Positions 1 to 16,199 of a stretch of 64,000 nucleotides of DNA are shown here, piece after piece. Both the position numbers and the translations under genes were made by a program. The stretch covers positions 2,666,001-2,730,000 of the forward strand of contig NZ_JAUSWJ010000001.1 of the NCBI RefSeq assembly GCF_030815145.1, in the 5' to 3' direction. Numbering within the stretch: position 1 is the first letter of the stretch; every line of letters begins with the position of its first letter. The notes below the pieces were generated by a model. It was not told the origin of the DNA. It did no database searches and saw nothing but the letters and a program-made list of their open reading frames with translations. The stretch comes from Kaistia geumhonensis (lineage in GTDB: Bacteria > Pseudomonadota > Alphaproteobacteria > Rhizobiales > Kaistiaceae).

Positions 1-2950
1 TGAGCCGGGCCAGCCGGTCGGCGGCCTCGTCGCCGAGTTCGTCGGCCGGCCTGTCCTTCACGGCGCTGGAGAAGGGCTGACCCTTGCCGACCTTGCCGAG
101 GCCGATCCAGCCGAGCACGGCGACGGAGCCGCCGGGCGGAATCTCGCGAAAGGCTCCCCGGCGCAGCATCGCGGTTTCCAGCGCGAGCTGCGGCGCGAGG
201 CCGGTCGCGAGCTGCTTGGCCGAAGGCGGCGCACCAGTCTTGAAATCGATGATCTCATAGGCGCCGTCCGTGCGGCGGTCGATGCGGTCGGCGCGGCCGG
301 TGAGCTCGAAGCCGCCCGGCAGCGGCATACGGCCGTCGATCTCGGCATGTCGCTCGGCGATGCCGTCGCGCGTCCGCTCCCAGTCGACATACCAGCGGGC
401 GATCGCAAGGAAGCGCGGCCACCAGAGCGCATGGACGGCCGGAAAGGCGGCGATCTCGTGGAAGACGTCGCGGCCCTCCTCGATCAGCGTCGCTTCCGCA
501 GCGCCGTCGAATTGCCCCGTCCAGCGCGCCGCGAAGCGGCCAAGCGCCTCGTGGATCAGCGTGCCGCGCAGCGCCGCGTCGGGCGCGACGTCGATCGGAT
601 CGAGCGGCTCCAGCCTCAGGATGCGACGCGCATAGATCGCATAGGGATCGCGGACCAGCGTCTCGATCTCGGTCACCGAGAGGCGCTTCGGCCGGGCGGA
701 CACCGGCGGCTTCGGACGCGGGCGCTTCATGGCTTCGGGCGCCGGCGCGGCGTCGAGCGCGCGGGCCCAGTCGAGATAGACGGCGCCCCGCGCCGCGATC
801 TCCTTCGCCGCGGCCTCGCCGAGGCGGGCATCGATGCGTTGCAGCCAGCGCGAGGGAATGGTCGGCGTGCCGCCGCGCCGCTCGCAGCGGGTGACGACGA
901 CGCGCGGATTGCCGAGCGCCGCCGCGAAGTCGTGCGCCGCCTGGCCGAGCCGGCGCTCCGGCGCCTCGAGGCCGAACGCTGCGCGCATCGAGCGCGAGAG
1001 CCAGGGATCGGTGCGCGTCGCCGCGGGCCAGATGCCCTCGTCCAGCCCCGCCAGCACGAGGCAGTCGGCCGATTGCAGACGCGCCTCCAGCGTGCCCCAG
1101 ATCGCGATGCGCGGATCGCCGCCGCCGCGGGGCGGCACCGCGACGCCGCCCATCGCAGCATCGAGGAAATCCGGGAACTCGGAGCCCGAAAGCGCCAGCG
1201 TGGCGCCATGCGGGCCGCCGAGACCCTCGAGCAGGCCGGAAAGGGCTTCGCCGTCCTCGTCCGCCTCGATGACGCCTTCGCCGTCCTCCGTTTCGAGGAT
1301 GGCGGCAATTGTCGTGCGAAGCTCCGCGGCCAGGGTCGCCGCGTCGCTCCTGGCGCCATCGGCCAGCCGGCCAGCGAGCGGATCGAGCGCCGCGACCATG
1401 CGGGCGACGAGATCGGCCGCCGCCTCGCAGTCGGCGACCGAGAGGCGCCGCACGGCCGGATGCCGGCGCTTGTCGGGATCGGCCGCGTCGTCGATCGCCG
1501 CCGCCAGCGCCGCCGGCAGGCCGGCGAGCCCCCCCGCGAGCAGCCGGCCGCGGAAAAGCAGCAGATCGATCGTCTCGGCGGCGGCGCGGCACACGGAGCG
1601 CGGCAGGCCGAAGGTCGCGAGCGGATGCTTGGCGAGCGCGAGGAGATCGAGTGGCGCGCCGTCGGAGCGCGCGGCGGCGGTCGTGAGGCGGGCGAGCGTG
1701 CCGATCTGGGTTCCGCGCAGGCCGCGCCCGGCGGAATCGACGACGTCGAGGCCGAAACGCTGCAATTCCGCCACGACCCGCGCCGCAATGGCGCGGTCGG
1801 GCGTCACCAGCGCCGCGCTGGCACCGGGTTCCTCGATCGCCTCGCGCAGCACGACGGCAATGGCGAGCGCTTCCTCCTGCTCGTTGCGGGCGGCGACCAG
1901 CGCGATGCCTTCGGTCGCCAGCGGATCGACGTCCGGCGCCACGGCCCAGGCCTCGGTCGTCTCGGCCGGCCGCATGGCATCGGAGACGAGGCGGCCGCGT
2001 GCGGCGAGCGCCGGCGGCGGGCTCGCCAGCGTCTCGACATCGGCGCGGAGGATGCCGGCCCGTCCGAGCCACTGCTTGAGGCCGTATTGCGGATGCCCCG
2101 GTGCGCCGGCGGCGCCGCCGCCGATGGCATTCCAGGCCTCCTCGTCGAGGCCGAGATCGAGATCGGGCAGCACCACGGCGCCGTTTCCGAGCCGGGCGAT
2201 GGTCGCGAGAAGCTCGGCGGTCGCGGGAACCGAGCCCGTCGAGCCGGCCGCGACCACGAGCCCCGGAGGCGGCGCCGTGCGCAGCCGACCGGCTTCGGCC
2301 CGGATCAGCAGGTCGCGCCGCGCCGCCGGATCGGCCAGCTCGGTCTCGGCAAGAAAGGCCGGCCAGGCCTCCCCGACGATCTTCAGAAAATCGAGCGTGA
2401 TCTGCCAGTACCGGGCGAGATCCTCAGGCACGAGACGATCGAGCGCGGAAAAGGCGAGCCCTGCCGCCGCCACGTCGTCGACGAGGCGGGCGAGATCGCC
2501 GGCGAGATGGAATGCATCTGCGGCGGAGGCGGGAATGGTGACGGGCGCGTCGGGGCTCTCGGCCAGCATCGCTTGGCGCAACCGGTCGCCCCAGGCCCGC
2601 GTCAGGCGCGCCAGCACTAGCTGCCGGTCGAGCCGCGAGATGGCCGCCGGCAGAACGAGACGGTCGGCGGGGTCCTCGACCGGCTGCAGCAGCAGGTCGT
2701 CCTCGTCGACATCGCCGATCGGCCGGATGACGGGAAGGATCGCGGCGCCGCCGAGCCGCTCGGCGAGCACCGCGCCCAGCGCCCGCGCCGCGCGGCGGTT
2801 GGGCAGGAAGATGCGGACATCGGCGAGCGCCAGCGGATCGGCCGCGAAATCCGGCACAGGGCCGAGCCGGCCGGCGAGAAGCGCGTCGGCGAGCGTCGGC
2901 AGGAACCGGGCGCCGGCTGGAATGGTGAAGACGCGCGCCCGCTCCGCCAT
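1..2950 (-). CDS. addB: Double-strand break repair protein AddB (partial, C-terminus off the window)
   Basis: About 983 codons are visible from the ATG at 2948-2950; the stop lies beyond base 1. AddB is the nuclease/scaffold partner of AddA in the helicase-nuclease that resects DNA ends for recombination. The N-terminus (MAERARVFTIPAGARF and a following NRRAARAL segment) is typical of the alphaproteobacterial form. Near the visible end is a RecB/PD-(D/E)XK nuclease region, with GTLIHEALGRF and later YEIIDFKTG, the D and K being catalytic-type residues. The start lies 4 bp past the stop of the upstream murU-like gene, so the two are probably cotranscribed. Identification is firm; the C-terminal end cannot be judged. 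Confidence 0.93.
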   Translation of the reverse strand, partial: MAERARVFTIPAGARFLPTLADALLAGRLGPVPDFAADPLALADVRIFLPNRRAARALGAVLAERLGGAAILPVIRPIGDVDEDDLLLQPVEDPADRLVLPAAISRLDRQLVLARLTRAWGDRLRQAMLAESPDAPVTIPASAADAFHLAGDLARLVDDVAAAGLAFSALDRLVPEDLARYWQITLDFLKIVGEAWPAFLAETELADPAARRDLLIRAEAGRLRTAPPPGLVVAAGSTGSVPATAELLATIARLGNGAVVLPDLDLGLDEEAWNAIGGGAAGAPGHPQYGLKQWLGRAGILRADVETLASPPPALAARGRLVSDAMRPAETTEAWAVAPDVDPLATEGIALVAARNEQEEALAIAVVLREAIEEPGASAALVTPDRAIAARVVAELQRFGLDVVDSAGRGLRGTQIGTLARLTTAAARSDGAPLDLLALAKHPLATFGLPRSVCRAAAETIDLLLFRGRLLAGGLAGLPAALAAAIDDAADPDKRRHPAVRRLSVADCEAAADLVARMVAALDPLAGRLADGARSDAATLAAELRTTIAAILETEDGEGVIEADEDGEALSGLLEGLGGPHGATLALSGSEFPDFLDAAMGGVAVPPRGGGDPRIAIWGTLEARLQSADCLVLAGLDEGIWPAATRTDPWLSRSMRAAFGLEAPERRLGQAAHDFAAALGNPRVVVTRCERRGGTPTIPSRWLQRIDARLGEAAAKEIAARGAVYLDWARALDAAPAPEAMKRPRPKPPVSARPKRLSVTEIETLVRDPYAIYARRILRLEPLDPIDVAPDAALRGTLIHEALGRFAARWTGQFDGAAEATLIEEGRDVFHEIAAFPAVHALWWPRFLAIARWYVDWERTRDGIAERHAEIDGRMPLPGGFELTGRADRIDRRTDGAYEIIDFKTGAPPSAKQLATGLAPQLALETAMLRRGAFREIPPGGSVAVLGWIGLGKVGKGQPFSSAVKDRPADELGDEAADRLARL

Positions 2951-2954
2951 CGGC

Positions 2955-3701
2955 TCAGGCAGCGCTCTCCGCCACCGAAAGCTCGGCCTCGCGGATCGCC
3001 TCCGGCGTTCCGACATGCAGCCAGATGCCGTCCATGCGCACACCGAACAGCCGCCGCGCGGCGATCGCCCGGTCGAACAGGAGATTGAGCGAGAACGCGC
3101 CTTCCGGCAGGTCGGTGAAGATCCGCGGCGACAGGATCGCGGCGCCGGAATAGACGAAGGGCGCGATGGTGCGCTCGGGGCGGCGCGACAGCCGGCCCTC
3201 CTTGTCCATGAGGAAATCGCCCGGCCCGTAATAGCCGATCGAGGCGACCGTCGGCGCCAGCATCAAGAGCGCGTCCATCTCGGCGTCGTTCCAGCCGCCG
3301 GCCAGCCAGTCGAGATTGGGCCTCGGCCCCTCGATCCAGAAGCTGTCGGAATTCATGACATAGAACGGCTCGTTGCCGAGAAGGGGCAACGCCTTGGCGA
3401 TGCCCCCGCCCGTCTCGAGCAACGCGCCGCGCTCGTCCGAGACAAGCACCTTCGGCGCCTTGCGCTTGCGGACATGCACCTCGACCAGATCGGCAAGGTA
3501 GTGGACGTTCACCACCGCTTCCTCCACGCCGGCACGGGCGAGACGGTCGAGCGCGCGGTCGATCATCGAGCGGCCGGCCACCTCGATCAGCGGCTTCGGC
3601 ACGGTGGCGGTCACGGGGCGCATCCGCTTGCCGATACCGGCGGCCAGCACCATGGCGCGGCGCGGTCCTGCGGGCTTGCGGAACGGAATGGGGTCGGTCA
3701 T
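2955..3701 (-). CDS. murU: MurU-like N-acetylmuramate-1-phosphate uridylyltransferase
   Basis: A 248-residue nucleotidyltransferase of the sugar-phosphate family. It has the nucleotide-binding loop LAAGIGKRMRP at residues 19-29, followed by KPLIEVAGRSMIDRALD. MurU converts MurNAc-1-phosphate plus UTP to UDP-MurNAc in the MurNAc recycling route that bypasses de novo UDP-MurNAc synthesis. The upstream gene encodes an AmgK-like sugar kinase domain, the enzyme one step earlier, which favours MurU over other uridylyltransferases. The gap to that gene is 45 bp and to addB 4 bp. Substrate specificity is inferred from family and neighbour, not shown. Confidence 0.85.
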   Translation of the reverse strand: MTDPIPFRKPAGPRRAMVLAAGIGKRMRPVTATVPKPLIEVAGRSMIDRALDRLARAGVEEAVVNVHYLADLVEVHVRKRKAPKVLVSDERGALLETGGGIAKALPLLGNEPFYVMNSDSFWIEGPRPNLDWLAGGWNDAEMDALLMLAPTVASIGYYGPGDFLMDKEGRLSRRPERTIAPFVYSGAAILSPRIFTDLPEGAFSLNLLFDRAIAARRLFGVRMDGIWLHVGTPEAIREAELSVAESAA

Positions 3702-3746: not shown

Positions 3747-5243
3747 TCAATCGTCGAGCGGCAGGTGACGATCGTACCAGAGCGCCAGCGGCGACAGAAC
3801 CTCATGGCGCAGATTCCGCTTCAGATAAGCCTTTACCCGCGGAATGTGACGGAGATATTGGGGCCGCCCGAAGGCATTGGCGAGCCGTGCGAAGCCGCCG
3901 AGGATCTTGGTCGTCCGCTGCGCCCCCGAAATGGCATAGGCCGCGGCGAAGGTATCGCCGTCGAAGGCGCCCGCCGTTCGGCGCGCCTCGACATAGGCAT
4001 GGATGGTCGCCTGTTCCAGCGCCTCGTCGACGTCGACACGCACATCCTGGCCGAGCGAGGCGAGGTCATAGGCGCTGGCGCCGATCATCGCATCCTGGTG
4101 GTCGAGCACGCCGATCCGCGCGATGCCCGTGCGCTCGGGCAGCCAGAGAAGGTTGGGCGAATGATAGTCGCGCAGCAGCCAGCTCTTTTCCGCCTGGTCG
4201 AAGCGCTCGAAGAGGCGAGTCCAGATCGAGCGGAACGCGGCTTCGGCGTCCTCGTCCAGAGTCCGGCCGATAAGCGGCGCGTACCAGCGCGGCAGGAGAT
4301 CGACCTCGATCAGGAAGGCGTCGCGGTCGAAAGCGGGGATCGAATAGCGTTCCCCGCCCGAAACGGGCAGTTCCGCCGGCCGCGCCTCGGCATGGAGATG
4401 GGCGAGCAGTTCGGCCGCCGCCTGCCAGCGCTCCGGCCTCGGCGCTCCATCCTTGACGATGAACCGGTCGCCGAGATCCTCGAGCAGCAGCAGCCCTGCC
4501 GGAATATCCGCGGCCAGGATGCGCGGCGCCGAGATGCCGATGGCGCGGAGGCCTTCGTTCATCGCGACGAAGGGGAGGACGGTGGTCGCGCGGTGGGCGA
4601 CATCGTCATAGCTGCGCCCGTCCCAGACCGGCGGGCCCGGCAACCGGTCGCGTGCATCCATCAGGACGGCGCGCGTTCCGTCGGCGCGGACGAGGCGCTC
4701 ATAGCTGCGACCGGAAGCATCGCCCGCTAGATGGGCGCGCCGGGCGGTGCCGAAGCCCGCATCGTCCAGGAAGCGGGCGATGCCGGCGAGGCGATCGAGA
4801 CGCTCCGGCCAGGCGCCCCCACCCGAAAGGGCGGCGCGTCGGCCGTCCCCTTCGATGTCGAGGCGGATCGTCAGTGCAGAGCGGGGAATCCGGCCGCCGC
4901 CCCGCTCCGGCCATTCGATCAGCACGGCACCGTCGGCGACCGCCTCTTCGAAGCCGATCTCGTCGAGCTCGTCGGGCGAGCCGAGGCGATAGAGATCGAA
5001 ATGCGCGATCGGCACGCGACCCGGATAGGTCTGCACCAGCGTGAAGGTCGGGCTCGGCACCTCGAGCGCCGGATCGCCGGCGACGGCGCGGATCAGCGCC
5101 CGTGCAAGCGTCGTCTTGCCGGCGCCGAGATCGCCTTCGAGCGCGATGACGTCGCCGGCGGCGAGCCTCGTCGCGAGCGCCTCGGCGAGGCGGTGGGTCG
5201 CCGCCTCGTCGGCGAGCGTCAGGACCAGCGCCGCGTCGCTCAT
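3747..5243 (-). CDS. tsaE: Fusion of TsaE (tRNA t6A ATPase) and AmgK-like MurNAc/GlcNAc anomeric kinase
   Basis: One 498-residue frame carries two domains. Residues 1 to about 150 are TsaE, the ATPase of the t6A37 tRNA-modification complex, with Walker A GDLGAGKTT at 37-45 and the SPTFTLVQ stretch at 64-71. Residues about 155-498 are an aminoglycoside-phosphotransferase-fold kinase, with catalytic loop RDYHSPNLLW (D359, H361, N364) and DHQD at 381-384. This matches AmgK, which makes MurNAc-1-phosphate for MurU, encoded next. The fusion is common in alphaproteobacteria. The start overlaps the divL stop as ATGA, indicating translational coupling. TsaB, another t6A component, is encoded at 38309-38965. 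Confidence 0.88.
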   Translation of the reverse strand: MSDAALVLTLADEAATHRLAEALATRLAAGDVIALEGDLGAGKTTLARALIRAVAGDPALEVPSPTFTLVQTYPGRVPIAHFDLYRLGSPDELDEIGFEEAVADGAVLIEWPERGGGRIPRSALTIRLDIEGDGRRAALSGGGAWPERLDRLAGIARFLDDAGFGTARRAHLAGDASGRSYERLVRADGTRAVLMDARDRLPGPPVWDGRSYDDVAHRATTVLPFVAMNEGLRAIGISAPRILAADIPAGLLLLEDLGDRFIVKDGAPRPERWQAAAELLAHLHAEARPAELPVSGGERYSIPAFDRDAFLIEVDLLPRWYAPLIGRTLDEDAEAAFRSIWTRLFERFDQAEKSWLLRDYHSPNLLWLPERTGIARIGVLDHQDAMIGASAYDLASLGQDVRVDVDEALEQATIHAYVEARRTAGAFDGDTFAAAYAISGAQRTTKILGGFARLANAFGRPQYLRHIPRVKAYLKRNLRHEVLSPLALWYDRHLPLDD

Positions 5244-7735
5244 TCCGCGGCGATGTCGAGCGCGTCGGGCCGGATCGGCAGGCGGACGGTGACCGTCGTG
5301 CCGCGGCCCATCTCAGACACGATGGCGACGCTGCCGCCATGCAACTCGACGAAGCTGCGCACGATGGCGAGACCGAGCCCGGCGCCGCCGCGCGCCGAGC
5401 CCGAGGCGCGGCTCTCGAAACGCTCGAACACCGAGGCGATGAAATCCGCCGGAATGCCCGGCCCCTCGTCGGAAACGGTGAACTCGATCATGTCGCCGGC
5501 GCGGCGGGCGGCAAGGCGGATCGTGGCCCCGGCCGGCGAGAAGCCGACGGCATTGGAGAGCAGGTTGTAGAGAATCTGTCGGATGCGCTTCTCGTCGGCG
5601 ACGAAATTGCCGAGATCGGCGGGCAGGCGGGTTTCCAGCTTGAGCCGCGATTCCCGCAGCCGGTCGCGCACGCCTTCCGTGGCGGCGGCGACCGTATCGG
5701 CGACATTCACCTCGCCGAGGTCGAGCGTGATGATGCCGGCATCGACGGTGGCGAGATCGAGGATGTCGTTGACGATCGCGAGCAGCGAACCGCTCGAGGA
5801 GAGGATGTAGCCGGTATATTCGCGCTGCTTGTCGTTGAGCGGCCCGACGGTCACGTCGGCGAGCAGCTGCGCGAAGCCGATGATGTTGGTGAGCGGCGAG
5901 CGCAGCTCGTAGGAAACGTGCTGGATGAAGGCGTTCTTGAGCCCGTCCGCCGCCTCGAGCGCCTCGTTGCGGTCGGTCAGCGCGCGCTCGACCTGCACGG
6001 TGTCGGTGACGTCGACGAAGGTCACCATGGTCTGGCCGTTAGGCAGCGGGACCATCGCATAATCGATGATGCGCCGGTCGTGGCGCTCCATGCGGCCGTG
6101 GAAGCCGGAGCGCCGCTCGCCGAGGCCGGCCACCTCGGCGGTGAAGCGCGCCCATTCCTCGGCGCCGTCGGTCTCGGCGCTGCAGGCTCTGGCGATGTCG
6201 CCGACATGCGGCCGCGCCGCCAGCATCGCCGGATCGAGCCGCCAGATGCGCGCAAAGGCCGGATTGTGCAGGCGCAGCCGCCCGTCCGACCCGAACACCG
6301 CGACGCCCTCGGCGAGATTGTCGAGCGTCTCGCCCTGAACCTGGATCAGGGCGTTGTAGCGGCTTTCGAGATCGAGCCGCTCGGTGACGTTCTCGTAGAT
6401 CCACGTCATGCCGCCCTGCGGATGCGGGTTGGCGATGACGCGCAGCGTCTGCCCGTCCGGCAGATGCCACCAGAACTCCCGCGCATCGACCGACTGGTAG
6501 GCGGCGAAGAGCTCCTTGCGCCAGCTCTTGAAGTCGACCTGCTCGGGCAGGCGGCGGCCGGCACGCATCCGCTCCAGCACGGCGCTCTCGTCCGGCTGCT
6601 GGTCGAGGAAGGAGGATTCGAGGCCGAAAAGCTGGCGGAAGGCGGCGTTGTACGAGCGCAGCCGGTGATCCGGCCCGAATACGGCGACCGCGGTCGCCAA
6701 TTGGTCGAGCGTGCGGGCATGGAACTCGACCAGCCGCTTCATCTGCGCCTGGAGCGATTCGAGTTCGGTCGCGTCGGTGGCGAGACCGGCGCTGCCGGCC
6801 TCCGAGGCCACGTCCACGACATCGAACATGCGCCGCTCGCCTGCGACGACCAGCGGCAGGCGGCGGCCGAAATCGCGGCCTTCCGCATGGGCGCGGACGA
6901 TCGCCTGGCGCCCGGCGGTATCGACGAGCTCGAGCCGGCGCCGCAACGCATCCTCGAGACTGTTCGCCTCGACGGCGCGCAGATAGGCGGCGTTGGCCCA
7001 TTGCAGGGCGCCGTCGCGATCGCGGATCCAGCAGGGCAGCGGCGCGGCCTCGATCAGGGCGCGCATCGCGGTGACATCCTGGCTCAGCCGGCGGTGGCGC
7101 GCGTCGAGCTCGGCCAGCGCCAGCCGGTCGCCGGAGAGATCGCGGAAGCGGGCCACGGCCCGCCCGGCGGCGGTGCGCCCGGCCGCCTCGACGAAGCTGC
7201 CATTCGCCGTTTCAAGCGCGATGGTGAAGGTTTCGCCGAGTCCGCGCAGCCGCTCGAGCGCGAGATCGAGGCGGCTCGCGGAGCTTCCCGTCAGCCAGGT
7301 ACCGAAGGCGAGGAACGCCGACCTGTCCTCGGGCGCGCCGCACGCACGCGGCAGCCGGCCCATGACGAGCGGCGGCTCTTCCGGGCCGCTCCAGGCGACG
7401 AGGCGCTGGTCGTCGGCATTGACCAGCGCTTCCGCACGGTCGGCAGCGGCGCGAAGGTCGGCGACGCGCATCTGCGTCTCGGCGAGGGCGGCCTCGGCGC
7501 GGTCGCGCGCCCGCAGCAGCACCGCGATCGCCACCAGCGCGAAGATGAGCACGCCGAACACGGCGCTGAACGAGACGATGCGGTCGGGCGCGAGGAAGGC
7601 GGCCGTGAGCTCGCTGGCAACGGCGCCGCGGGCACCCCAGAGCATCAGCGTGGCGACAAGAATGGCGAGCCTGGCAGCGGCCGGGCGGCGCGCGCCGGCC
7701 GGAATCCATCCCGATTTCCCGCTATGCCAAGGCAA
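5240..7735 (-). CDS. divL: DivL-type PAS sensor kinase with tyrosine in place of the phospho-acceptor histidine
   Basis: About 831 residues from a TTG at 7735; a GTG at 7819 in the same frame would add 28. I prefer TTG because GGAAGGA lies 7-8 nt upstream of it. There are two hydrophobic N-terminal segments (about 21-41 and 53-72), PAS-like regions near 343-450 and 472-580, a HisKA-like helix, then HATPase boxes NLLSNAV, DEGPGI and GGAGLGLAIV. The expected SHELRTPL motif reads VSYELRSPL: codon TAC at 5909-5911 gives Tyr at about residue 609. That substitution and the link to addB, murU and tsaE match DivL, which in Caulobacter acts with DivK and CckA upstream of CtrA. No response regulator is adjacent. 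Confidence 0.85.
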   Translation of the reverse strand: MPWHSGKSGWIPAGARRPAAARLAILVATLMLWGARGAVASELTAAFLAPDRIVSFSAVFGVLIFALVAIAVLLRARDRAEAALAETQMRVADLRAAADRAEALVNADDQRLVAWSGPEEPPLVMGRLPRACGAPEDRSAFLAFGTWLTGSSASRLDLALERLRGLGETFTIALETANGSFVEAAGRTAAGRAVARFRDLSGDRLALAELDARHRRLSQDVTAMRALIEAAPLPCWIRDRDGALQWANAAYLRAVEANSLEDALRRRLELVDTAGRQAIVRAHAEGRDFGRRLPLVVAGERRMFDVVDVASEAGSAGLATDATELESLQAQMKRLVEFHARTLDQLATAVAVFGPDHRLRSYNAAFRQLFGLESSFLDQQPDESAVLERMRAGRRLPEQVDFKSWRKELFAAYQSVDAREFWWHLPDGQTLRVIANPHPQGGMTWIYENVTERLDLESRYNALIQVQGETLDNLAEGVAVFGSDGRLRLHNPAFARIWRLDPAMLAARPHVGDIARACSAETDGAEEWARFTAEVAGLGERRSGFHGRMERHDRRIIDYAMVPLPNGQTMVTFVDVTDTVQVERALTDRNEALEAADGLKNAFIQHVSYELRSPLTNIIGFAQLLADVTVGPLNDKQREYTGYILSSSGSLLAIVNDILDLATVDAGIITLDLGEVNVADTVAAATEGVRDRLRESRLKLETRLPADLGNFVADEKRIRQILYNLLSNAVGFSPAGATIRLAARRAGDMIEFTVSDEGPGIPADFIASVFERFESRASGSARGGAGLGLAIVRSFVELHGGSVAIVSEMGRGTTVTVRLPIRPDALDIAAE

Positions 7736-7864
7736 AGACAGGTCCTTCCGCCAAGACGTGTTACCTGGAACGACCCGCCGCACGCCTGACGCTACCCACC
7801 GGCGATGCGCTCGAATCACCCTAATGTAGCGGTTCGGGGAATCCTGAGGGAAGCCGCAGGCGAC

Positions 7865-7964: not shown

Positions 7965-9368
7965 TCAGTAGCGGTAGTGCTCCGGCTTGAACGGGCCCGT
8001 CTCCGAAACGCCGATATAGGCCGACTGCTTGTCGTTGAGCTTCGTCAGCTTGACGCCGATCTTGGCGAGGTGCAGCGCCGCGACCTTCTCGTCGAGGAAT
8101 TTCGGCAGCGTGTAGACCTTCTTCTCGTAGACGCCGGGCTTGGTGAAGAGCTCGATCTGCGCCAGCGTCTGGTTGGTGAAGGACGCCGACATCACGAAGC
8201 TCGGATGGCCCATGGCGTTGCCGAGATTGACCAGACGACCCTCGGACAGAAGGATCACACGCTTGCCGTCGGGGAACTCGACCTCGTCGACCTGCGGCTT
8301 GACCTTGTGCCACTTGTAGTTGCGCAGCGACGCAACCTGGATCTCGCTGTCGAAGTGGCCGATATTGCACACGATCGCGCGATCCTTCATGGCGCGCATA
8401 TGGTCGATCGTGATGACGTCGACATTGCCGGTCGCGGTCACGAAGATGTCGGCCTTCGGCGCCGCTTCTTCCATGGTCACGACCTCGTAGCCTTCCATCG
8501 CCGCCTGCAGGGCGCAGATCGGATCGACTTCCGAGACCATCACGCGGCAGCCGGCCTGGCGCAGCGAGGCGGCCGAGCCCTTGCCGACATCGCCGAAGCC
8601 GGCGACCATGGCGACCTTGCCGGCCATCATGACGTCGGTGCCGCGGCGGATGCCGTCGACGAGCGACTCGCGGCAGCCATAGAGATTGTCGAATTTCGAC
8701 TTGGTGACCGAATCGTTCACGTTGATGGCCGGGAAGAGCAGCGTGCCCTTCTTCTGCATCTCGTAGAGACGGTGCACGCCCGTCGTCGTCTCCTCGGTCA
8801 CGCCGCGGATCGACTGCGCAAGCTTCGTGTACCAGCCGGGCTTGTGCTTCAGACGGCGCTTGATGGCGGCGAAGAAGACCTCTTCCTCCTCGTTGCCGGG
8901 ATTGTCGAGGAAGGCGGTATCGCCCTGCTCGGCGCGGAGCCCGAGATGCACGAGCGCCGTCGCGTCGCCGCCGTCGTCGAGGATCATGTTCGGCACGCCG
9001 CCATCCGCCCATTCGAAGATGCGGTGCGTGTATTCCCAGTAGTCCTCGAGGCTCTCGCCCTTGATGGCGAAGACCGGCGTGCCGCCATCGGCGATCGCCG
9101 CCGCGGCATGGTCCTGGGTCGAATAGATGTTGCAGGAGGCCCAGCGCACGTCGGCGCCGAGCGCCTTCAGCGTCTCGATCAGCACGCCCGTCTGGATGGT
9201 CATGTGCAGCGAGCCGGCGATGCGCGCGCCCTTGAGCGGCTGCGAGGGGCCGTACTCGGCCCGAAGGCTCATCAGGCCGGGCATCTCGACCTCGGCGATG
9301 TCGAGCTCGCGGCGGCCCCAGTCGGCGAGACCGATATCCTTGATCGCGTAATCGTGCTGTTCGGCCAT
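7965..9368 (-). CDS. ahcY: Adenosylhomocysteinase (S-adenosyl-L-homocysteine hydrolase)
   Basis: A 467-residue enzyme that splits S-adenosylhomocysteine to adenosine and homocysteine, keeping the SAM cycle running; it uses bound NAD. The NAD-binding loop [17 protein letters not shown] is present, and the C-terminus PEHYRY is characteristic. The frame extends upstream, but [17 protein letters not shown] at 9368 is the best start because GGAG lies 6 nt before it; an in-frame ATG 6 bp upstream is too close to that ribosome site. A strong promoter and a dyad precede it and a clear terminator follows. metK, the SAM synthetase gene, is at 28786-29976. Confidence 0.97.
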
Positions 9369-9396
9369 GGCCATCTCCAATTGTCGTCGTGGCGCG

Positions 9397-9425
9397 CTTA
9401 TAGCCGAGACGCCGCCTCCCGGCAA
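9397..9425 (-). promoter_or_regulatory. Sigma70-type promoter of ahcY
   Basis: Minus strand TTGCCG (9420-9425), 17-nt spacer, TATAAG (9397-9402). Transcription would start near 9390, giving a leader of about 22 nt before the ahcY ATG. Hexamers and spacing are close to the housekeeping consensus. Confidence 0.65.
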
Positions 9426-10354: not shown

Positions 10355-10816
10355 TCACCCATCGTTAACCGTGCGACAACCGGCGAGCAGCACGGCGCGG
10401 ACACGCACCGCGCCGTCGGAATGGCCGATCGGCAGCACTAGCCTCGGAATTTCGATGCCCAGAAGGGCCGCGTGGTTCGTCGAGCGCTCCGGCATCCGCG
10501 GCACGGCGGCGGCCTCTTCGAGATCGACCACCAGCCCGATTTCCTGCGCTGCAACATACGGGAGGCGCAGGATGCCGTATCCGCGAAGCTCGATCAGACC
10601 CGCCAGCGCCTCCGGCGGCGAGGCGACGAGCCGGCCCGCCTCGCCTGCAAGGACCGTCCGGTCGTCGGCGACGAGGCGGTTGCGCGCGCTGTCGGCGAGG
10701 ATCAGTGCGAGAACCAGCGCCGACTTGCCGCTGCCGGACGGCCCGCGCACGAGGACGCCCGTTCCGTCGACGAGGGCGGCGCTGGCATGGATGGTCGGCG
10801 CGAGGCCGGCGCTCAC
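10355..10816 (-). CDS. hprK: HPr kinase/phosphorylase, short alphaproteobacterial form
   Basis: 153 residues, about half the length of the Firmicutes enzyme because the N-terminal domain is missing, as is normal in alphaproteobacteria. The P-loop GPSGSGKS is at residues 25-32, followed by DDRTVL, and ELRGYGILRLPY matches the family signature. It phosphorylates and dephosphorylates HPr on serine. Its start overlaps the chvG stop as ATGA, tying PTS regulation to the ChvG-ChvI system. EIIA follows after 167 bp of non-coding sequence. Confidence 0.93.
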   Translation of the reverse strand: MSAGLAPTIHASAALVDGTGVLVRGPSGSGKSALVLALILADSARNRLVADDRTVLAGEAGRLVASPPEALAGLIELRGYGILRLPYVAAQEIGLVVDLEEAAAVPRMPERSTNHAALLGIEIPRLVLPIGHSDGAVRVRAVLLAGCRTVNDG

Positions 10817-12600
10817 GCCGCGGCCCCCGGCAGGCGCACCGTGAAGCGGGCGCCGAGCACAACCGGCGCGTCGTCCTTCGCGGCGCGCGGCTTCAGCCGG
10901 TTCTCCGCCCAGATGCGACCGCGATGCGCCTCGACGATCTGCCGCGAGATCGAGAGGCCGAGGCCGGAATTCTGGCCGAAGGCCTCCTGCTCGGGCCGGT
11001 CGGTATAGAATCGCTCGAAGATGCGCTCCACCTGCTCGGCACGGATGCCGGGCCCGTCGTCCTCGACCACGACATCGACGGCGGCGCCATTGCGACGGAG
11101 CATCACCCGCACGCCGCCATCCTTCGGCGTGAAGGAGCGGGCATTGTCGATGAGATTGGTGAAAACCTGGCCGAGGCGGCTGTCATGGCCGAGCACGACA
11201 TAGGCGTCGTCCTGGTCGCTCTTTGCGATGTCGAGCGTGATCGCCGGCCCGTCCGTCCCCGCGATCTCGCGCTGTACAGAGACCACGGCCTCGAGGATGC
11301 GGGCGACGTCGATCGGCACCGCGTCCTGGCGGGCCATCTCCGCGTCGAGGCGCGAGGCGTCCGAAATGTCGCTGATCAGGCGATCGAGGCGGCGGACATC
11401 GTGCTGGATGATCTCGGTGAGGCGCGCCTTCGCGGCCGGCGTCTTGGCGAGCGGCAGCGTCTCGACCGCGCTGCGGAGCGAGGTCAGCGGGTTCTTCAGC
11501 TCGTGGCTGACATCGGCCGCGAAGCTCTCGATCGCCTCGATGCGGTTGTAGAGCGAGGCGGTCATCTCGCGCAGCGCCTGCGAGAGATGGCCGATCTCGT
11601 CGCGGCGGGCGGAGAAATCGGGGATCTGCGGCCGCGAGGTGACCCCGCGCCGGACGCGGTCCGCCGCATCGGCGAGACGGCGAAGGGGGGCGGCGATGGT
11701 GCCGGCGAGCAGGATCGACAGCACGACCACGACGCCGGCCGAGACGAGGAAGACGCGCACGATGGCCATGCGCTCGGCATGCACGATCTGGTCGATGTCG
11801 CCGCCCTGCGTGGAGAGCAGAAGGACGCCGAGCACGGACCGGTAGCGCTGGATCGGCACCGCGACCGAGACGATGAGTTCGCCCCGCTCTGTGATGCGCA
11901 CGATCGAGGACGGACTGCCTTCCAGCGCGGTCGCGACCTCTGGATAGCCGCGGCCGTTGAGGCCGCCGAGCTCGTGATAGATCGGCAGGTCGTCGCGCTG
12001 CAGATGCACCTTCACCCATTCCCAGATGCGGTCGAACAGCGCCGGCTCCTCGTCGGAATCAGCCGGCAGGTCGAAACGCAGGATCTGGCCGCGCGAATAG
12101 AGATGGCGCGAATCGAGCACCGGGATGCCGTCGCGGTCATAGATGCGGGCGCGGGTGCGGGTGGGCGAGATCAGGCGTCGCAGGACCGGCGCGACCCGCT
12201 CCGGATTGATCGGGAAGTCGAGCCCCTCGATGGCGTTGGCGCCCGGCGTCATGCTCTCGCCGGCCTGCAGCTCGAGCAGCTTGTCGGGATCAATGGTGAT
12301 GTTGTTGGTCTCGACCGTCGCCGAGGCGGCGATCGCGCCGGCGATGATCTCGCCTTGCGTCAGCAGGCTTTCCAGCCTGGCATCGATGAGGCCGGCGCGG
12401 AACTGGTTGAGATAGAGGATGCCTGAGACGAGGACGATCAGAGCCGCGAGATTGAGGATGACGATGCGGCGCGTGAGGCTGGAGAAGGCGTGCAGCCCGA
12501 TCGAGCGCAGGAATCGCGTCGCGAGCCGACGCAGATGGCGAACACGCACCCGCCGCGCCGGCCGGCGCGCCGGCGTCCCTTCGTCGATGCTGACGGTCAT
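10813..12600 (-). CDS. chvG: ChvG/ExoS-type envelope-stress sensor histidine kinase
   Basis: About 595 residues from the ATG at 12600. Features in order: a basic N-terminus, TM1 (VILNLAALIVLVSGILYL), a large periplasmic region, TM2 (FLVSAGVVVVLSILLAGTI), HAMP, HisKA with H in VSHELKNPL, then NLIDNARSFTP, DDGPGI and GQNSGLGLSI of the ATP-binding domain. An in-frame start at 12663 would overlap chvI; 12600 has GGGAG directly upstream, though the spacing is short. It partners with ChvI encoded 31 bp upstream. In Agrobacterium, Sinorhizobium and Brucella this system governs acid, envelope and host-associated responses. Confidence 0.94.
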   Translation of the reverse strand: MTVSIDEGTPARRPARRVRVRHLRRLATRFLRSIGLHAFSSLTRRIVILNLAALIVLVSGILYLNQFRAGLIDARLESLLTQGEIIAGAIAASATVETNNITIDPDKLLELQAGESMTPGANAIEGLDFPINPERVAPVLRRLISPTRTRARIYDRDGIPVLDSRHLYSRGQILRFDLPADSDEEPALFDRIWEWVKVHLQRDDLPIYHELGGLNGRGYPEVATALEGSPSSIVRITERGELIVSVAVPIQRYRSVLGVLLLSTQGGDIDQIVHAERMAIVRVFLVSAGVVVVLSILLAGTIAAPLRRLADAADRVRRGVTSRPQIPDFSARRDEIGHLSQALREMTASLYNRIEAIESFAADVSHELKNPLTSLRSAVETLPLAKTPAAKARLTEIIQHDVRRLDRLISDISDASRLDAEMARQDAVPIDVARILEAVVSVQREIAGTDGPAITLDIAKSDQDDAYVVLGHDSRLGQVFTNLIDNARSFTPKDGGVRVMLRRNGAAVDVVVEDDGPGIRAEQVERIFERFYTDRPEQEAFGQNSGLGLSISRQIVEAHRGRIWAENRLKPRAAKDDAPVVLGARFTVRLPGAAA

Positions 12601-12631
12601 TCTCCCGTCCGAACCCGCGCGGCGCGCCGCG

Positions 12632-13336
12632 TCAGGCCTCCTTGAACCGGTAGCCGACGCCATAGAGCGTCTCGATCATGTCGAAGTCGTCGTCGACCTG
12701 CTTGAACTTCTTGCGCAGCCGCTTGATGTGGCTGTCGATCGTCCGGTCGTCGACATAGACCTGGTCGTCGTAGGCGGCATCCATCAGGGCGTTGCGGCTC
12801 TTCACCACGCCCGGGCGCTGCGCGAGCGCATAGAGGATCAGGAATTCGGTGACCGTCAGCGTCACCGGCTGGCCGTTCCAGGTGCAGGTATGGCGCTCCT
12901 GGTCCATGGACAGCGCGCCGCGATCGAGATTGCGCTGCTGGTCCGGAACCTTGGCGTTCGGCGCGCCCTCGCGCGGCTGGAAGCGGCGCAGCACAGCCTT
13001 CACGCGCTCGACCAGCAGGCGCTGCGAGAACGGCTTCTTGATGAAGTCGTCGGCGCCCATCTTGAGGCCGAACAGCTCGTCGATCTCGTCGTCCTTCGAG
13101 GTCAGGAAGATGACGGGCAGGTCGGTGCGCTGGCGCAGACGCCGCAGCAGCTCCATCCCGTCCATGCGCGGCATCTTGATGTCGAGGATCGCGAGATCGG
13201 GCTGAGACTGCTGAAAACCGTCCAGCGCCGAGGCGCCGTCGGTATAGGTCTGCACGCGATAGCCTTCCGATTCGAGCGCAATCGACACGGAGGCGAGAAT
13301 GTTGCGATCGTCATCGACGAGAGCAATCGTCGGCAT
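12632..13336 (-). CDS. chvI: ChvI response regulator (OmpR family)
   Basis: 234 residues. A receiver domain with acidic pair DD at 8-9 and phospho-acceptor D52 in [10 protein letters not shown], then a winged-helix DNA-binding domain ending [18 protein letters not shown] and [12 protein letters not shown]. Very close to rhizobial ChvI. First gene of the chvI-chvG-hprK run on this strand. pckA, a known ChvI-linked gene in agrobacteria, lies about 1.3 kb away on the opposite strand. Confidence 0.96.

Positions 13337-14594: not shown

Positions 14595-16199
<1,605 letters not shown>

Follow-up and report, generated by a model that had tools for sequence, protein, structure and literature searches.

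The window analysed here, a stretch of 64,000 nucleotides from Kaistia geumhonensis, encodes an ordinary DivL, a further member of a known family that is explained by published work (PMC4211667) and in which a tyrosine stands where kinases carry the phospho-acceptor histidine. DivL has the build of a kinase and takes part in cell-cycle control across many alphaproteobacteria. The analysis establishes the family to which the protein belongs, its locus, the conservation of its tyrosine, the change of further catalytic positions and the presence of partner genes in the genome. Taken as a whole, the best explanation, to which we assign a probability of about 0.93, is that the protein is a DivL ortholog, its organism being a Kaistia-like member of the Hyphomicrobiales, and that it acts as its counterpart does in Caulobacter. 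While the window protein is one DivL more, the wider survey made around it and the exceptions to tyrosine that were found there carry the greater weight.

The divL gene, its locus and its identity

The protein follows the order of PAS domains, HisKA and HATPase_c (Pfam; Table 1), and hydrophobic stretches are visible in the translation of its N-terminal region. Absent from it is the phospho-acceptor histidine, the mark of ordinary HisKA sensor kinases. Read on the minus strand, the acceptor region is TTC ATC CAG CAC GTT TCC TAC GAG CTG CGC TCG CCG CTC, its TAC encoding Tyr637, and the corresponding stretch of the protein is AFIQHVSYELRSPLTN.

Table 1. Features of the divL locus, in window positions
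Feature	Position	Strand	Remarks
divL, PAS-HisKA-HATPase_c pseudokinase	5240..7819	-	859 aa from start GTG 7819; TTG 7735 in the same frame is also admissible
Acceptor-site codon TAC, Tyr637	5909..5911	-	replaces the phospho-acceptor His; Caulobacter Tyr550
HisKA (DHp) domain	5735..5938	-	residues 628-695; Pfam
HATPase_c (CA) domain	5270..5596	-	residues 742-850; Pfam
PAS_7 match	6371..6709	-	residues 371-483; Pfam
PAS_4 match	5996..6325	-	residues 499-608; Pfam
Weaker PAS match	6932..7066	-	residues 252-296; Pfam
Gly759, N-box position	5543..5545	-	Lys in the ordinary kinases compared
ahcY, upstream neighbour	7965..9425	-	TIGR00936, 597.5 bits, cut-off 497.6; start uncertain
Fused tsaE-amgK	3747..5243	-	TsaE over cut-off; AmgK 250 bits, cut-off 500
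murU	2955..3701	-	267 bits, cut-off 370
addB	2..2947	-	TIGR02786, 1018 bits, cut-off 486.5; extends past the window, precise start uncertain

On the minus strand the genes run in the order ahcY, divL, fused tsaE-amgK, murU and addB, the end of divL overlapping tsaE-amgK by 4 bases. Among the close relatives, a set of 79 loci at 48-97% identity (85 stretches found, 80 kept), tsaE-amgK lies on the same strand in 78 and ahcY inside the fetched stretch in 75. The nearest relatives of the window gene come from Kaistia species and from records labelled Mesorhizobium, Bosea and Hyphomicrobiales. Near the divL locus the window also holds a sensor kinase of ChvG type (499 bits against a cut-off of 740) with an adjoining OmpR-type regulator, presumably ChvI (10813-13336, minus strand), and, together with this pair, pckA (14595-16199, plus strand).

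Among solved structures, the top match of the protein is Caulobacter DivL (4q20, E 3.9e-44), tyrosine being aligned on tyrosine. In a tree of 112 rows, in which the acceptor residue had been masked, Caulobacter DivL and the window protein fall on a 98-row side that is set apart from the histidine kinase paralogues with an SH-aLRT of 100; these 98 rows include an own-genome dCache hybrid kinase with 29% of its columns filled and loosely placed, and one class row that fell with the paralogues is counted there. A careful tree of 25 rows supports the split between DivL and histidine kinases at 100/99. Since no DivL model is among the NCBIfam matches listed (the best 25 of 81 matching families, all below cut-off), the name DivL rests on the tree, the locus and the structure match. 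A search of the window genome gave 25 further places with related kinase domains, and the seven fetched all have histidine. The DivJ-, PleC- and PdhS-like kinases of this genome likewise combine HisKA and HATPase_c, most of them with PAS; unlike the window protein, they carry histidine at the acceptor and lie outside the DivL group.

With Caulobacter crescentus DivL the window protein shares the tyrosine in place of histidine, the DHp and CA domains and the equivalents of Arg553 and Ala601. In the kinase region compared it differs by Phe649 for Tyr562 and Ser641 for Thr554, and its N-box reads LLSNAVGFS where that of Caulobacter reads LVENALRQT. Within its own order, the nearest known counterparts are the DivL proteins of Sinorhizobium meliloti and Agrobacterium (Atu0027), as published; for S. 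meliloti the reports give a layout of a transmembrane segment, two PAS domains, HisKA and HATPase_c and tie DivL genetically to CckA (PMC11500502, PMC3577659). More widely, DivL is described in Sinorhizobium, Agrobacterium and Hyphomonas and, in truncated form, in Wolbachia (PMC11500502, PMC3577659, PMC7200025, PMC4426382).

The sequence-only reading had named the protein DivL from the tyrosine in VSYELRSPL and from the neighbours addB, murU and tsaE/amgK. Both observations stand, with ahcY now added upstream, and the alignment and the tree against DivJ-, PleC- and PdhS-like kinases that it had proposed place the protein with Caulobacter DivL and its tyrosine in the column shared by all 79 close relatives.

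Conservation of the tyrosine and of the catalytic positions

Among the close relatives the tyrosine codon is TAC in 54 loci and TAT in 25; since both codons occur, it is the amino acid that has been kept and not the codon. Outside the phenylalanine-bearing genera and family f4 discussed below, tyrosine is also found in 97/97 of the wider order-level rows scored, a non-random set that combines the top 30 matches with those at the weak end, a sample picked by hand and 45 mainly pattern-lacking genomes, and that shares species with the close relatives. The pattern in question, a DNA pattern for S-Y-[EQ]-L-R-[ST]-P-L, has its single match in the window genome at window positions 5892-5914 and is matched in 232 of 297 genomes of the order and in all 13 genomes drawn from the window's own family. 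Because it missed tyrosine homologues with differing neighbour residues and had at least one match away from divL, it was used solely to pick genomes for reading; of the 45 read mainly for lacking it (44 did), 43 were scored, 40 with tyrosine and 3 with phenylalanine. A DivL-grade match at 1e-50 was not found in 6 of the 297 order genomes, some of which are incomplete, although one has a listed completeness of 98%; at 1e-35, matches appear in five of these six, all of them histidine kinases. The residue counts exclude two loci from which no single frame was recovered and two that are second copies of counted genes.

An ordinary sensor histidine kinase altered by a point mutation or a sequencing error would need a single base to arrive at this state (CAC to TAC). 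Such an origin is rejected in view of the tyrosine common to all 79 close relatives, the nearest genomes included, and of the use of both of its codons, and we regard it as very improbable.

The ATPase boxes, which had been read as intact, are so for Asn756, Asp784 and the GAGLGL motif; the claim fails at the lysine position of the N-box, where the window protein has Gly759. Lysine stands there in 9/9 paralogue rows from other genomes and in 7/7 own-genome kinases, and in 0/177 order rows, that is, the close relatives together with 98 wider rows (one phenylalanine locus is counted among the latter here and with the phenylalanine group in the tyrosine and +4 counts). Arginine, a like residue, takes its place in 55 of the 177 (46/79 close relatives and 9/98 wider rows), so that the loss is uneven in depth across the order. 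The residue four positions after the acceptor is Ser641 in the window protein and serine in 79/79 close relatives; threonine is found there in 16/97 wider order-level rows, 9/9 paralogue rows and 7/7 own-genome kinases. The N-box lysine contacts the phosphates of ATP, and the +4 residue has its part in phosphatase activity. With both of them altered, the change in Hyphomicrobiales DivL reaches beyond the histidine.

The title of an early paper reportedly presents DivL as a tyrosine kinase. An active, tyrosine-phosphorylating enzyme would be in keeping with the conserved tyrosine, with the presence of most ATP-binding motifs and with the basic arginine that 55 of the 177 order rows have at the N-box lysine position. 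This is nonetheless very improbable, given that the lysine is missing from all 177, with glycine in the window, that phenylalanine replaces the tyrosine in 4/4 loci of genera g47 and g73, and that Caulobacter DivL is described as without autokinase activity and as binding an ATP analogue weakly (PMC4211667). The pseudokinase reading is the one carried forward here.

The CtrA circuit and the proposed role of DivL

The CtrA cell-cycle circuit that the sequence-only reading expected in this organism is borne out at the level of gene content. The genome encodes CtrA (428 bits, cut-off 350) with a ChpT domain over cut-off beside it, DivK (2.7e-59 against Caulobacter DivK) followed by PleD over cut-off, and CckA at genome positions 4437184-4439685 (1282 bits, cut-off 1000); DivK, CckA, ChpT and CtrA are common to it and Caulobacter crescentus. 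PdhS-like and DivJ-like kinases are encoded too, both under their cut-offs. A dCache hybrid kinase at 3956361-3958556 was considered as CckA and rejected, the CckA model reaching 369 bits there.

Control of CckA by the window DivL is proposed on the model of Caulobacter. In such a scheme the protein would be without autophosphorylation and, when free, would hold the hybrid kinase CckA in its kinase mode, in which phosphate would pass via ChpT to CtrA. Phosphorylated DivK would bind to the DHp surface of DivL and thereby shut off the flow of phosphate from CckA through ChpT to CtrA, and the PAS domains of DivL would sharpen its preference for DivK~P.

According to the Caulobacter study, R553A, Y562A and A601L each weaken the binding of DivK~P (PMC4211667). 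The HisKA domain of the window protein keeps the first and the last of these docking residues as Arg640 and Ala690; the Tyr562 column holds Phe649, as it holds phenylalanine in 79/79 close relatives. The Ala601 column has serine in 9/9 paralogue rows, as against Ala690 in the window protein.

A protein that is DivL by descent and yet no longer coupled to DivK, and that acts on CckA solely by way of its PAS part, would have its precedents in the short DivL forms of Rhodobacterales and in the DivL that is reported to lack a kinase domain where DivK has been lost (PMC2877005, PMC9430884). In the window protein the DHp and CA domains are kept together with Arg640 and Ala690, and DivK is encoded in the genome, which makes such uncoupling unlikely; DivL acting as in Caulobacter is the reading that we prefer. 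As an observation apart, two genomes of the survey (G316 and G301) combine a tyrosine-bearing DivL whose kinase motifs are largely kept with no DivK match at 1e-20, and run counter to the reported rule that ties the kinase domain to DivK.

Departures from tyrosine and what they could mean

The Caulobacter study describes Tyr550 as present throughout DivL homologues, with alanine in Magnetospirillum magneticum as the sole exception, and Caulobacter DivL itself as having neither kinase nor phosphatase activity; its Y550H form is viable but defective, with an autokinase that DivK~P stimulates (PMC4211667). No published exception besides alanine was found in the literature reached by the search, which covered the listings and passages from some of the listed papers and did not extend to most subscription journals. 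To this single alanine the survey adds histidine in 23/23 loci of family f93 and phenylalanine in 4/4 loci of two genera. Tyrosine at the acceptor column of DivL is not universal, and it is therefore no strict criterion for DivL: f93, the two genera of family f42 and genus g59 depart from it. Histidine at homologous loci, which the sequence-only reading had named as evidence against its proposal, does occur in another family of the class (23/23) and in genus g59 (6/9); the 13 genomes drawn from the family to which the window belongs nevertheless all carry the tyrosine pattern, and the protein does not group with ordinary histidine kinases.

In f93, an alphaproteobacterial family, the DivL-locus proteins keep the +4 threonine and the N-box lysine along with the asparagine, the aspartate and GxGxG. 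A tsaE-amgK match, mostly to the AmgK part, follows in 22/23 loci and starts about 440-560 bases downstream, and ahcY lies in the stretch in 21/23. The Ala601 equivalent is alanine in all 23 rows, as in most DivL rows. Five f93 genomes have DivK at 78-81% identity and CtrA over cut-off; the CckA model scores 768-792 bits in them, under its cut-off of 1000. The 112-row quick tree puts f93 with tyrosine-bearing class rows and one further histidine row (SH-aLRT 95); the careful 25-row tree gives its placement relative to the tyrosine-bearing class rows without resolution. In an AU test on the 25 rows, a grouping of f93 with the paralogues is not rejected (p 0.374); this group was chosen after the trees had been seen, and it amounts to f93 branching first. 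By locus and docking column we would call the f93 protein DivL, and its histidine may have been either retained or regained.

Phenylalanine occupies the acceptor column in 4/4 loci of genera g47 and g73 (family f42), two of these loci having altered G1, F and G2 motifs as well. The four genomes contain DivK, CtrA over cut-off and a CckA model match over cut-off, and across the nine histidine or phenylalanine genomes checked (five and four) the DivK matches are 68-81% identical. In the reduced-genome family f4, genus g9 has tyrosine in 2/2 loci, and genus g59, which belongs to the same order as the window and has genomes of about 0.9-1.6 Mb, has histidine in 6/9 and tyrosine in 3/9. HisKA is present in the five g59 DivL proteins scanned and HATPase_c was not found in them by Pfam up to E 0.1; it is still present in the one g9 DivL scanned. 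A diverged DivK, 49-55% identical, occurs in all eight f4 genomes checked, six of them of g59. The other class rows (n=74) comprise 57 with tyrosine, 2 with histidine, 3 unaligned and 12 with other letters, several being too diverged for sure alignment; in the class set 87 of 142 genomes matched at 1e-40, the remaining 55 and nine weak matchers having been left unread.

A tentative reading of these departures, to which we would give somewhat less than even odds, is that the f93 protein may represent either the state of DivL that preceded the pseudokinase or a DivL re-armed, and that in g59 the ATPase may have decayed while the column varies between tyrosine and histidine. The pseudokinase state would then count as one stable solution among several, and the f93 protein may phosphorylate or dephosphorylate DivK. 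The histidine-bearing DivL of f93 and the phenylalanine-bearing DivL of g47 and g73 parallel in nature the Y550H and Y550F forms studied in Caulobacter, and with them the role of the acceptor residue becomes testable by comparison.
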